DNA from: an uncultured Parabacteroides sp.
GTDB taxonomy: Bacteria > Bacteroidota > Bacteroidia > Bacteroidales > Tannerellaceae
NCBI GenBank assembly: GCA_949296075.1
Contig: CASFNG010000011.1
Span: forward strand, 222,189 to 286,188
Direction of reading: 5' to 3'
DNA length: 64,000 bases
Within the stretch, counting starts at the first letter, position 1. Every line of letters begins with the position of its first letter. Positions 9,125-13,758 of the stretch are shown piece by piece. A program made the translations under genes and the position numbers. The notes beneath the pieces are model-generated. The model did not search any database and was not told the origin of the DNA. It saw only the letters and a program-made list of their open reading frames with translations.

Positions 9125-11131
9125 TTAATAAGACACGCATACGCTCAGCCGCCAGGAACGGCCGGGCATCGGGTAATACTGGATCACGTCGTAATTCTTA
9201 TCCGCGAGATTCAGCAGCTCTCCCTGAAGGCGCACGCCCCAGTCCCCGAAACGGAACTCCCTATTCAAGGAAAGACTTTGCTCCACATACGAATCGATCC
9301 GGTTCTGCACGATATTCTGCGGCAAGGCATATCGATCCCCCACGGCGGTCATCAGATAAGAGACATTCACCCACCGGCTTTCGACCGACAGGGAAACCGT
9401 ACCGGAGTGGCGGGGTGTATAGGGGATCTGATCCTTATACGTCTTCCCCGCCGGGTCTGTCACATCCACCGCATACTGATAGGAATACGAGGAGGCGAGC
9501 CGCAGACCCATCTTCCACGGCAAAGGGAACCCCGCAGAGAGGTTAACGTCCACCCCCTTGATATTCACCTCGCCCAAGTTCATCATCCGGGCGATATACA
9601 TGGTAGGCATCACCACGATCTTATCCTCTACCGTATTATAATAGCCATCCACCGAGAGATGGAGGTCGCGCAACCAATCACCAGCCGCCCCGCTCCAAGT
9701 AAGCCCCACGTTGTATTGTGAGGTCTCCTCCGACCTCAGGTTCGTATTCCCCATGCGCAGGTAATACAGATCCGTGAACGTAGGTACCCGGAAAATGTCC
9801 TTGTAAGAGGCCCTTACCCGGAAGGTACTCTCGGGAAACGGCCGCCACGACAGGCTGACAGCCGGAGAGAGTCGCTTCCGGTCGGCTGGCTTATCACCCG
9901 TACGCACCTGATCCGTCATATACGTCCCTAAGAGGCTTCCTGTCACCGTCAGCCGGCTATCCTGATACCGGGCAGCCAAGACAGACTGCGAGGCCCAGCG
10001 CCGCGGGTTCGGCCCCTTCACGAAATTATTATCCAGACGGGTACGGGTGAGATCTGTCGTCAGCGCGACAGAGAGATACCTCAAGGGCGTATATAGCACC
10101 CCCACCGAACCGTAATATTCCTGCTGGGTATTCCGGTCCACCTGCTCGCCAGCCGCATATTTATCGCTCACGTCGCGATAACGGGTAAAGCCATAGTTAT
10201 ACTTCGCCAGCCCCCGGATCGTAAAACGGTCATCCAGTTTGTTCCTATATCCCGCCTGCACGAAGAAGTTATTGTCCCACAGCCGTTCAGAAGCCTCCTT
10301 GTTATACAGGTTCACCGATCCCGGAAGCCCCCGTTCGGAGTCGAAATAGTAAGCCTTGAGAGAGAGCTCCCCGCCACCGCCGAGGTCACCGAAAGCGTTC
10401 CCCTCCACATGATACGAACGGATGTCGCTGTTGCGCCGCTTCTCCCGGGTCACCAAGTCACCATTCACCAAGGTATAGGGATACGCCCCATCCGCCCGTG
10501 TGAAATCGCCATGCAAAGACGTGCTCCACCGCTTGCCCAAACGCTGGTCGTAATGCAGCACCGGATTGAAAAGCCCGAACGAGCCAGTCCGAACCTTCGC
10601 GTAAGCGTTGAACGATTTGTCCCGGAACGTCGGCTTGGCGGTCTGGATATTCAATGCACCTGCCGAGGCATAGACCCGCGCCGTCTGGAAAATATCATCG
10701 GATTGCCCTATCGAGAGCGATACCATCTCCACATTATCCAAGGAGAAACGGCTAATATCCACCTGTCCACTTTGCGCGTCGGAGATCGTCACCCCGTCGT
10801 AGCTCACCGCGGTATGCTTCGCCCCGAGGCTACGCACCGATACCGTCTTCAACCCGCCGATGCCCCCGTAGTCCTGCACGGTGACCCCCGAGAAGCGCTT
10901 CACCGCCTCCGACAGGTCGCGCACCCCCAAACGGTCTATCTCCCCCCGGTTCATCACCTGCAAGGGTACCCCCTCGCGGGTGACGGAACGGCGGGCTTTC
11001 TCCACTACCTCCACGCCCGACAGCTCATAATAGGCGGTCGTATCGACCCGCTGCCCCCGAGCGAGTATAGAGAAGCACAGCCATATTCCCAACAGGAACA
11101 GCGCTTTTCGCGTCCAATCTCGTATTCGCAT
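9125..11131 (-). CDS. btuB: TonB-dependent outer-membrane B12 receptor
   Basis: A 668-residue TonB-dependent receptor of the BtuB type. After a signal peptide (ending near LARGQ), a plug domain carries LSEAVKRFSGVTVQDYGGIGGLKTVSVRSLG and the barrel runs to the C-terminal aromatic strand ending CVSY. At 668 residues it is short compared with SusC proteins and lacks their N-terminal carboxypeptidase-like domain, as expected for BtuB. The cobalamin riboswitch lies directly upstream (11179-11359), with a GGAAGGA ribosome-binding site just before the ATG. Expression should fall when B12 is plentiful. It heads the btuB-btuG-btuF-like operon. Confidence 0.93.
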   Translation of the reverse strand: MRIRDWTRKALFLLGIWLCFSILARGQRVDTTAYYELSGVEVVEKARRSVTREGVPLQVMNRGEIDRLGVRDLSEAVKRFSGVTVQDYGGIGGLKTVSVRSLGAKHTAVSYDGVTISDAQSGQVDISRFSLDNVEMVSLSIGQSDDIFQTARVYASAGALNIQTAKPTFRDKSFNAYAKVRTGSFGLFNPVLHYDQRLGKRWSTSLHGDFTRADGAYPYTLVNGDLVTREKRRNSDIRSYHVEGNAFGDLGGGGELSLKAYYFDSERGLPGSVNLYNKEASERLWDNNFFVQAGYRNKLDDRFTIRGLAKYNYGFTRYRDVSDKYAAGEQVDRNTQQEYYGSVGVLYTPLRYLSVALTTDLTRTRLDNNFVKGPNPRRWASQSVLAARYQDSRLTVTGSLLGTYMTDQVRTGDKPADRKRLSPAVSLSWRPFPESTFRVRASYKDIFRVPTFTDLYYLRMGNTNLRSEETSQYNVGLTWSGAAGDWLRDLHLSVDGYYNTVEDKIVVMPTMYIARMMNLGEVNIKGVDVNLSAGFPLPWKMGLRLASSYSYQYAVDVTDPAGKTYKDQIPYTPRHSGTVSLSVESRWVNVSYLMTAVGDRYALPQNIVQNRIDSYVEQSLSLNREFRFGDWGVRLQGELLNLADKNYDVIQYYPMPGRSWRLSVCVSY

Positions 11132-11178
11132 AAATCCTTCCGATTTATCGATACCCTCACCCGAGGCACCGAATAACC

Positions 11179-11359
11179 CGATCCTGGCAGGTTTTCTGGC
11201 TCGCCCACCCTTTGTCGGCCACCTTCCCGCCCTACCGGGCAGTGGTAACGAGTTCGCCGGGGTTTCACAGGACTAACAGCTACGGGTACAGCTCCGGATT
11301 CGCACCGGATTCCCTTTTACTACCTCTTGCCCGGTCGGGCAGGAGGTACACCTGGATCG
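11179..11359 (-). promoter_or_regulatory. Cobalamin (B12) riboswitch
   Basis: On the minus strand the 5' and 3' ends pair as a closing P1 helix (GGATCG at 11354-11359 with CGATCC at 11179-11184). Inside are the conserved GGTGCGAATCCGGAGCTG core, the B12-box part CCACTGCCCGG, GGGAAGGTGGCC, and the 3' GAGCCAGAAAACCTGCC element typical of this class. It begins about where the promoter at 11364-11394 should start transcription and lies 48 bases before btuB, so it probably controls translation or termination in the leader. Confidence 0.95.
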
Positions 11360-11363
11360 ACCG

Positions 11364-11394
11364 CGAATATACGCGTATTTCTCTCGATTCGCAA
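11364..11394 (-). promoter_or_regulatory. btuB operon promoter (Bacteroidetes type)
   Basis: Minus-strand -33 element TTG (11392-11394), a 20-base spacer and -7 element TATATTCG (11364-11371). The consensus is TTTG/TAnnTTTG; here the -7 box has C in place of the third T. The predicted start falls at the 5' edge of the riboswitch. Confidence 0.7.
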
Positions 11395-11450
11395 CAAGAT
11401 CGGATCGAATCCCCCAAGGAGTCTAAAATATCCCAAGTTTTTTAATAAAT

Positions 11451-11495
11451 AAAAAAGGCTATCCAACCATAAATGACTTGGTAGATAGCCTTTTT
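11451..11495. terminator. Terminator after the protease gene
   Basis: The run AAAAAAGGCTATC (11451-11463) pairs with GATAGCCTTTTT (11484-11495). On the minus strand the stem ends in T6, so it can terminate the protease transcript that stops at 11522. Symmetry also allows plus-strand use, but no plus-strand gene precedes it. Confidence 0.75.
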
Positions 11496-11521
11496 CATTA
11501 TTCCAATGCCAGCCGATAAGC

Positions 11522-13059
11522 TTACTTAATTATCAGCTGCTTGCTCAGTTTCCGTCCGTTCACGAACACCAGCACGAAATATCTCCCGACTGGAAGGTCG
11601 GCTACGGATATATCTACCTTCGGTTGATTGAAAGTGTAGCTCTTGAGCAAGGCTGCCGGAGACCAGATCTGCACCTTGTAGCTCCCGTTATTGGCTTGGC
11701 CTTTCAACCGTGGGTTAGCGGGGTTCAATCCATCCATAGACAACGTGACGACGTTCGTCGCGGGGTTCGGGGATAACGTCAGGCTATATGGAGAGGAGCA
11801 ATCGAGAGCCTCCACTTCCCCGGCTTGCACCCAGTTCCCCGCCTGACATCCCATCGAGCGAACCTCGAACGCATACCAGCCCGGGGATACCGCATAGGAA
11901 AGGTTGTTCTCGCCTCTGTGCGCTGAGAACGTACGAACCACATTCAAGCTCGGATAACTGAGGAGACGCACCTCATAGCTGTTGATATTGTAAGACGACT
12001 CAATCGTGAACGTGTTCGCCGATCGGTTCGAACACCAATAATTCCCGCCATCGAAGGTATTGTTGGCAATGACCACGCAACTCGTGTAACCTCCGCTAAT
12101 CAACTTTTTCTGCACGGTCCGCGTATAGCTCCCGCTCGTGATGGTAGCCGTCAACACGCCTTCCCCGGTTCCGGTAGAGGTAACCGTACAGGAAGTGTTG
12201 CTCTGCGAGGTGATCCGGATCGGGCCGGTACATGACCACGAGATCGACGCATTCGGATAATTGAGCGAATAGGTTTGCGAGTCGCAGACCTGATCCGAGA
12301 TTCCATCGATGGATAACGGGATATAGGGAAGAAGGAAATCTGAAATGGATAAGATTTTCACATAAGTATTATAATAATCATCCCCTTCACCAAATCCTTC
12401 CGAAACAATACCTATTAATACGTTTTGAGAAACAGATGAATCCCATATAGTTAAAGGTCCACCACTATCACCTTTGGATGCACCTTTACCCGCACCAGTT
12501 GTTACTACCTCTTGAGGTTCCGTACTTGCAGTAGGAGAAATAATTGAGACATTGACTTTTCTCAGCCTAGTCATCTCATGCTCATCTGGCCAATCAACAT
12601 CACCAGGTTGTTTTGTACTTCCATAACCTGTTACTGTAACCTGATTTCCAACATTATAGAAAGATTGATTATAAATAATTGTAGCAGGCTTTACACTGGA
12701 ACTGTTATACGAAGCCAAACTTCGAGAAAGCTTTATTAAAGCTACATCATATTGAGGATGTAGAATTATTTCTTGCACTTCATACAAATTAGATGAAGTC
12801 ACTTCCGATAACTCTGTAACACCAACAGCTATCTGTGTTGGATTCAAATGTGACATTTCAACAACATGCTTTGCCGTAATAATAAGGTCTGGACCCAGAA
12901 TAACCCCTCCTCCTTGCCACTTATTCGAGATTTTAATGGCCGCTTGCCACGGAGCTTCCGTTATATTAAATCTGACCCTCCCACTATTTTAGGCTGGGCA
13001 ATTACCTTTATCTGTAACACAGATAAACACAAAACGAGTAATAACGCAATTTTTCTCAT
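11522..13059 (-). pseudogene. Trypsin-fold serine protease with type IX secretion tail, frameshifted
   Basis: The minus-strand ATG at 13059 begins a signal peptide (MRKIALLLVLCLSVLQIKVI), AQPK and the chymotrypsin-family mature N-terminus IVGGSD, then reaches a TAA after 32 codons. The other frame continues at once with NITEAPWQAAIKISNKWQGG and the rest of the protease, so one base is missing at 12968-12970 (AAA on the plus strand). Restored, it has 512 residues: His65 (ITAKH), Asp105 (YDVALIKL), Ser199 (GDSGGPL), a PKD/Ig-like middle and a C-terminal sorting domain (SPNPATNVVTLSM to the end, about 425-512). The position equivalent to trypsin Asp189 reads Gly, so Lys/Arg specificity is not expected. 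The 12.33-13.06 kb part is AT-rich, unlike the tail. A sequencing error is possible. Confidence 0.85.
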
Positions 13060-13094
13060 AGAAATTTGTGTTTTTTGTTGATTTATAATGTTAA

Positions 13095-13487
13095 TTAATT
13101 CAATTCTTCGATCTCAGGACTTCCTAATCGAATACATCTCACGCTGGAATCAGGAATACATAATGGATGCCTCATAGTCTCACTCATAACATCTATCTCC
13201 AATCGCAAGGCCTTCCCATATTGTCCTTTAAATTGCGAAAGAAAATCGTTGTGCGCATAAACCAATGAATCATTCAATTCGAAACCTTCATGTCCACGAA
13301 GAATAAGGAATATTCCTTCATCTTCGCATCCGGGATCAGCCACTGTGGCTGTTACCTCTATGGGGAATACTAAATATCCCTCATAGGGAATATGTTCAGA
13401 ATCTTTCCATAAACCGCTTAAATCGTCCTTGCAAGCCCCAAACATGATAAGAAACCCTGATATGAGTAAAAACAATAGATTTTTCAT
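13095..13487 (-). CDS. Small lipoprotein upstream of the protease, possible protease inhibitor
   Basis: A 130-residue protein with a lipoprotein signal (SGFLIMFGAC) followed by KDD, an acidic motif seen in surface-exposed Bacteroidetes lipoproteins. No family is recognised; the mature part of about 110 residues looks like a small beta protein (YLVFPIEVTATVADPG, IFLILRG, ALRLEIDV) with several cysteines (CEDE, LCIP, VRCIR). It lies 35 bases before the protease gene on the same strand and shares its low GC content (24 of 60 bases at 13201-13260), so the two were probably acquired and expressed together. In T. forsythia, lipoprotein inhibitors called potempins are encoded beside the secreted KLIKK proteases; size and position fit that pattern, but inhibition is inference. 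Confidence 0.7.
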   Translation of the reverse strand: MKNLLFLLISGFLIMFGACKDDLSGLWKDSEHIPYEGYLVFPIEVTATVADPGCEDEGIFLILRGHEGFELNDSLVYAHNDFLSQFKGQYGKALRLEIDVMSETMRHPLCIPDSSVRCIRLGSPEIEELN

Positions 13488-13527
13488 GATCCATTCCTCC
13501 CTTTTAAGGTTAATTCATAAGATTCGA

Positions 13528-13559
13528 CTAAATTAGCTACTTAACCCATGTTTTCCAAA
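13528..13559 (-). promoter_or_regulatory. Promoter of the lipoprotein-protease pair
   Basis: Minus-strand TTTG (13556-13559), a 20-base spacer and TAATTTAG (13528-13535), one base off the TAnnTTTG consensus. A strong GGGAGGA ribosome-binding site precedes the lipoprotein ATG. Confidence 0.5.
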
Positions 13560-13758
13560 TTTGAACGCGCAATTTGTCAGAAAGTATGGCGCAAACTCGA
13601 TCAGTGAAGCACAAGCCTTCCGACCTCGCCCTTACCCAACACGCCGATATTCCACAAATATCCATAAATATGCCGTATATGACCGGATTTCCCACTTGCG
13701 TATCTCTAAGAATTTCCCGAATATCGCGTGCGTAACATCTTAAAATGACAAAAGTGAT

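Follow-up and report, generated by a model that had tools for sequence, protein, structure and literature searches.

Does a gut Parabacteroides carry a protease/inhibitor pair of the kind known from Tannerella forsythia, in which KLIKK proteases with type IX sorting signals are encoded beside lipoprotein inhibitors named potempins? The question is raised by a 64,000-nucleotide stretch of DNA from an uncultured Parabacteroides sp. (assembly GCA_949296075.1, contig CASFNG010000011.1, positions 222,189 to 286,188), here called the window, in which a small lipoprotein gene stands directly before a gene for a trypsin-like (S1A) protease with a type IX sorting domain (11522-13487). A sequence-only reading had proposed that the two genes are related to the KLIKK/potempin systems. 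Our analysis indicates that the locus is probably an accessory two-gene cassette of the KLIKK/potempin-like kind outside Tannerella, whose lipoprotein would block the co-encoded protease; we grade the evidence for the pairing as good and that for the inhibitor role as fair. The window differs from a plain pair of the gum-disease bacterium in that the reading frame of the protease is interrupted, whereas that of the likely inhibitor is whole.

A lipoprotein gene beside a broken protease gene

Unless stated otherwise, features of the locus lie on the minus strand. The lipoprotein gene is a 130-amino-acid open reading frame (ORF; 13095-13487) with a lipobox cysteine, Cys19 (codon 13431-13433), followed by Lys-Asp-Asp, as the sequence-only reading had stated. 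Aspartates thus occupy positions +3 and +4 after the cysteine, as in the surface export signal of B. fragilis (a pattern of its surface lipoproteins according to PMC5080379), and the lipoprotein is predicted to be located at the cell surface. Its sequence matched nothing in Pfam (over the cut-off), NCBIfam or the PDB chains; the PDB search returned nothing at E 10 and hence no similarity to a known potempin. The AlphaFold2 model (pLDDT 75-90 across residues 41-130) predicts, by structural match and strand order, that an OB fold begins near residue 41; potempins D, A and C are among the matches. As to the suggestion that this could be a new inhibitor type, the sequence family is new, but the fold, as modelled, is one already known from inhibitors.

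The first ATG of the protease gene (13059) follows the lipoprotein gene after 35 bases, the distance given before. Three-frame translation shows an N-terminal piece (12961-13059) that consists of a signal peptide, AQPK, IVGG, a few codons and a stop. The second open piece (11522-12985; 487 residues and a stop) carries the S1A catalytic domain (12311-12985) and a C-terminal extension. Its coding part (11525-12985) matches Pfam Trypsin (PF00089) at E 6.5e-27, and has GDSGG and the catalytic residues His40, Asp80 and Ser174, whose codons start at 12868, 12748 and 12466; they are the residues 65, 105 and 199 of the earlier description, less 25. The trypsin-fold assignment thus stands for this piece, but IVGG and the catalytic triad lie in different frames: the gene is broken just after IVGG and, as the sequence stands, does not encode a whole secreted protease. 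The sequence-only reading had evidently noticed the break, since it spoke of a 'restored protease', but left it out of its stated reasons. We treated the two pieces separately throughout. A protease model built from the window piece and two pieces of L025 reached a mean pLDDT of 41.8 and was not used.

Could the break be a sequencing or assembly error, the protease being intact in the living cell? The window comes from a single genome (2.73 Mb, 83.75% complete, 16 contigs), and public T. forsythia sequence had errors at KLIKK loci, as PMC4404884 reports. However, ORFs of at least 100 amino acids cover 91% of the window (breaks in other genes were not judged by homology), and the copy in a related genome, G016, has lost several codons as well as the frame, so real breaks do happen in this gene. 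We consider an error somewhat unlikely. The three protease genes of this kind described below are broken at different places, which led us to reject programmed frameshifting.

Few residues separate the signal peptide from IVGG in the window protease, so it has no KLIKK-style N-terminal profragment. In seven family members Gln-Gln-Arg/Lys-Ile comes directly after the signal peptide; G130 has Gln-Gln-Asn-Ile and the window Gln-Pro-Lys-Ile. As is established for other S1A enzymes, a cut before the Ile would release a new N-terminus. With residue numbers that we set ourselves from GDSGG, residue 189 reads as Gly and 213 to 216 as Val-Ser-Glu-Gly. Asp189 is found in none of the eight proteases examined, which argues against Lys/Arg specificity and makes the earlier remark to that effect, based on Gly189 and Gly216, a reasonable one.

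Pairing across Tannerellaceae

The two genes do occur together in related genomes. A search for S1A domains in 123 genomes of the family Tannerellaceae found 10 loci in 9 genomes, and in 10 of the 10 a small lipoprotein gene, one of them a remnant, lies directly upstream. The lipoproteins fall into three families: A (window, G016 and G017:C105), B (G003, G009, G100 and G017:C98, the last being a frame without a signal peptide that we assigned by eye) and C (G123, G126, G130). Comparisons of the profiles of A with B and of A with C matched signal peptides only, B against C matched 11 columns at 4%, and A against a PotA-like profile (A6) 25 columns at 9%. Outside the signal peptide, the three families thus show no similarity to one another. 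Family C matched the PotA-like profile at 94% (hhalign), the signal peptide being part of the aligned region.

The family-A profile (A1) matched in 5 of 38 genomes of the genus at E 0.001. Clear family-A lipoproteins are present in three, the window genome, G016 and G017 (which belongs to the window's genus), each directly before an S1A protease; weak matches fell in larger frames of 381 and 385 amino acids (G009, G003). The same search in 393 genomes sampled from the order found the window only, which means that G016 and G017 are absent from that sample. Six S1A loci in 5 genomes of other families (order sample, E 1e-15) had no upstream lipoprotein. A lipobox rule, applied to 84 other genes from part of the retrieved DNA and not to the S1A loci themselves, found such a lipoprotein before none of them. 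The pairing therefore looks specific to Tannerellaceae. A pair of this kind in Parabacteroides was not found among the literature titles and abstracts searched.

The state of the two genes differs. The protease is broken in 5 of the 10 loci (window, G016, both of G017, and G123), including all three family-A copies, each at a different place; in G016 the catalytic domain is whole and the tail is cut off. The lipoprotein is intact in 9, the exception being G017:C98. This pattern could mean that the locus has merely decayed, with a dead protease and a lipoprotein gene that owes its open frame to nothing more than its small size or a recent loss. The frequent protease breaks and the G017:C98 frame fit such decay; lipoprotein genes are, moreover, three to four times shorter than protease genes, so fewer chance breaks are expected in them. 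Yet the nine intact lipoproteins speak against it, as do the intact pairs of G003, G009, G100, G126 and G130, which indicate that the system persists in Tannerellaceae, and we consider simple decay unlikely. Protease losses may nonetheless be recent, with the lipoproteins still open for that reason, or retained inhibitors could protect against the proteases of other cells.

Some of these loci hold further lipoprotein genes. Five tandem lipoproteins of one family, B, directly precede the intact protease of G003 (L018 5145-7696). In G009 two more lipoprotein-like genes, of another type, lie 3' of the intact protease (L019 5308-6412). In G017 the 3'-end remnant of a second family-A gene (L016 7986-8111) has the pair on one side and a polA-like gene on the other.

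The KLIKK-type tail and the proposed role of the lipoprotein

The C-terminal extension of the window protease (11525-12310) ends in a type IX sorting domain (11525-11785) whose last residues, KQLIIK, are rich in Lys and Ile, as the sequence-only reading had noted, without being Lys-Leu-Ile-Lys-Lys; relatives end in QLIIR and QLIIK. Of all PDB chains, the best match to the second open piece was 8qb1, the sorting domain of mirolase, which aligns with the last 86 residues (E 1.1e-14); a kallikrein came next (9e-12). Pfam PF18962 gave the tail 22.3 bits, under its cut-off of 27. A profile of the extension (A3) matched in 12 of the 123 family genomes, 7 of them in genus g39, which we infer to be Tannerella from its karilysin-, mirolase- and KLIKK-ended genes. 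Against the g39 tails its longest match covered positions 6/7-264 of 265, and the best E was 3.2e-24. A tree built from 25 tails places those of the three family-A proteases with the tails labelled KLIKK (support 87/100, below the starred level) and apart from five other S1A protease tails; G090_768 branches away from the other 14 KLIKK-labelled tails. By its sequence, we assign the window tail to the KLIKK type.

The gene order is likewise that of the KLIKK genes. The whole KLIKK-ended genes with a visible start numbered eight (two in L055, those of L061, L064 and L067, the first of L066, the second of L068 and the first of L069), truncated or broken genes being left out of the count. Seven of them follow a lipoprotein gene of 116-202 amino acids; that of L066 follows one of 262.

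Several KLIKK-tail genes of the Tannerella-like genomes are also split (L057, L059, L062, L068 2764-4211; judged by eye), and the upstream lipoprotein genes of L059, L062 and L068 are open despite this. In genome G103 the KLIKK-tail loci L061, L062, L063 and L065 adjoin DUF3408, HTH_17 or integrase genes, in contrast to T. forsythia isolates, for which PMC13298647 reports no mobile elements near KLIKK loci.

The KLIKK set of T. forsythia comprises karilysin, mirolysin, forsilysin, mirolase, miropsin-1 and miropsin-2. With these the window pair shares a secreted protease with a C-terminal extension and the same kind of type IX sorting domain, a small lipoprotein gene immediately before it, as G016 and G017 have too, and the principle of varied catalytic heads on a common kind of tail. 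Unlike them, the window protease ends in KQLIIK, has a short stretch before IVGG, is broken, and is found in Parabacteroides. Like the potempins, the window lipoprotein is small, has a lipobox and is encoded upstream of a protease. Its model matches the OB folds of potempins A, C and D (8b2m/8b2n/8b2q, 8ehe and 8ehb, identified by their PDB titles) no better than those of other OB proteins, and sequence similarity to these potempins is undetectable. The pairs of G003, G009, G100, G126 and G130 resemble that of the window in catalytic family, gene order and type IX tails, and differ in that their genes are intact, their lipoproteins are of families B and C, and their tails are of other kinds.

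Taken together, we consider that the lipoprotein is likely a surface inhibitor of the downstream protease, by analogy with the KLIKK/potempin precedent; PMC4404884 and PMC7296668 describe that precedent, and the latter states that KLIKK lipoproteins in the same upstream place are inhibitors. The lipoprotein would be exported by Sec and lipidated, as predicted from its sequence. For the protease, Sec export would be followed by passage through the type IX system, guided by its KLIKK-type sorting domain; this second step is suggested by the kinship of the tail and by SprA, which is present in 36 of the 38 genus genomes, the window genome included. A cut before Ile16 would yield the active protease, and the OB-fold surface lipoprotein would most likely bind and block it, sparing the cell's own surface. 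On this reading the inhibitor and the catalytic head remain associated on a tail of KLIKK type.

Several observations limit this proposal. The catalytic head is S1A, whereas the KLIKK proteases are of metallo and serine types, both miropsins being reported as S1D in PMC4404884. The kinship claimed at the outset is supported for tail, gene order and modelled fold, and qualified by the head and the broken protease, a state common to all the family-A copies. The closeness of the family-A and KLIKK tails is partly selection, because the labelled tails were found with profile A3 (the mirolase match to 8qb1 is independent of this). Other OB proteins score equal to the potempins against the lipoprotein model, and the fold is widespread, so that inhibition is inferred. 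In a tree of seven heads, those of family B (G003, G009, G100) split from the rest and those of family C (G126, G130) pair, but the window and G016 heads have no resolved place beside C, so that the family-A heads do not form one resolved group. By BLAST, the broken G017:C98 head goes with B and that of G123 with C; the G017:C105 head is closest to G016 (60%), with G126 (47%) second and the window (44%) third. The head tree and, in G017, a lipoprotein GC unlike that of its head (below) lower our confidence in this reading.

The lipoprotein could instead be a helper, a surface partner for the anchoring, folding or secretion of the protease. In the KLIKK loci, however, the place upstream is stated to belong to inhibitors, as cited above. 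Furthermore, the proteases that accompany family B have heads of a single catalytic group but tails that occupy two places in the tail tree (that of G009 weakly supported, 81/72), which suits a partner of the head better than one of the tail. A helper role therefore seems rather improbable to us.

Gut Parabacteroides thus have, at this locus, both a tail of KLIKK type and the order of lipoprotein before protease, within a family-wide S1A set that has three lipoprotein families. This set makes protease-inhibitor co-evolution testable, as well as whether lone inhibitors guard cells against the proteases of other bacteria.

Composition and position of the locus

The GC content of the tail is 0.52-0.54, that of the catalytic head and the lipoprotein gene 0.39, and that of the two flanking genes 0.57-0.59. 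The best GC change point of the open protease piece is at residue 222, the end of the catalytic domain, with a score of 17.3; the next-highest score among 19 long window ORFs is 8.2. This raises the possibility that inhibitor and head are a swapped module that would stay together on type IX tails, here one of KLIKK type, and that in Parabacteroides the protease has been repeatedly lost, while the inhibitor was retained as a lone immunity gene that would guard against neighbours equipped with such proteases. Such swapping would mirror polymorphic toxins, in which the toxic end and the downstream immunity gene are what gets swapped. Strong jumps are also found in L018 (26.3), L081 (28.2) and L055 (14.2). 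Against the idea, the jump is middling in L068 (9.2), L069 (7.9) and L019 (6.4) and weak in L064 (4.2), L082 (1.9) and L084 (1.9). Moreover, the GC content at G017:C105 is 0.53 in the lipoprotein gene but 0.33-0.36 in the head. Given this last mismatch and the placement of the family-A heads, we regard module swapping as speculative and unlikely.

Comparison with G001 (blastn and ORF listing) places the cassette within 2320 bases (11368-13687, no strand assigned) between stretches homologous to that genome, in which the corresponding interval spans 595 bases, lacks the pair and has no ORF over 71 amino acids. In G016 and G017 the pair sits elsewhere, and the window's site holds other genes or none. 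The cassette is accessory, occupying three different sites in three genomes.

Downstream of the protease gene, an inverted repeat with A/T runs (I1, 11448-11499) is likely an intrinsic terminator by its sequence. The sole weak Rfam match within the cassette, far below gathering score, falls on this hairpin. A scan of ten related loci found no Rfam family at gathering score, and hence no Acido-Lenti-1, an RNA reported near miropsin and karilysin in PMC13298647. Beyond the cassette a cobalamin riboswitch (105.8 bits, Rfam) lies directly before a gene that resembles, by eye, one for a TonB-dependent receptor, and a lipoprotein gene (11169-11370 and 9125-11131, both minus strand). Together they probably form a vitamin B12 uptake operon.
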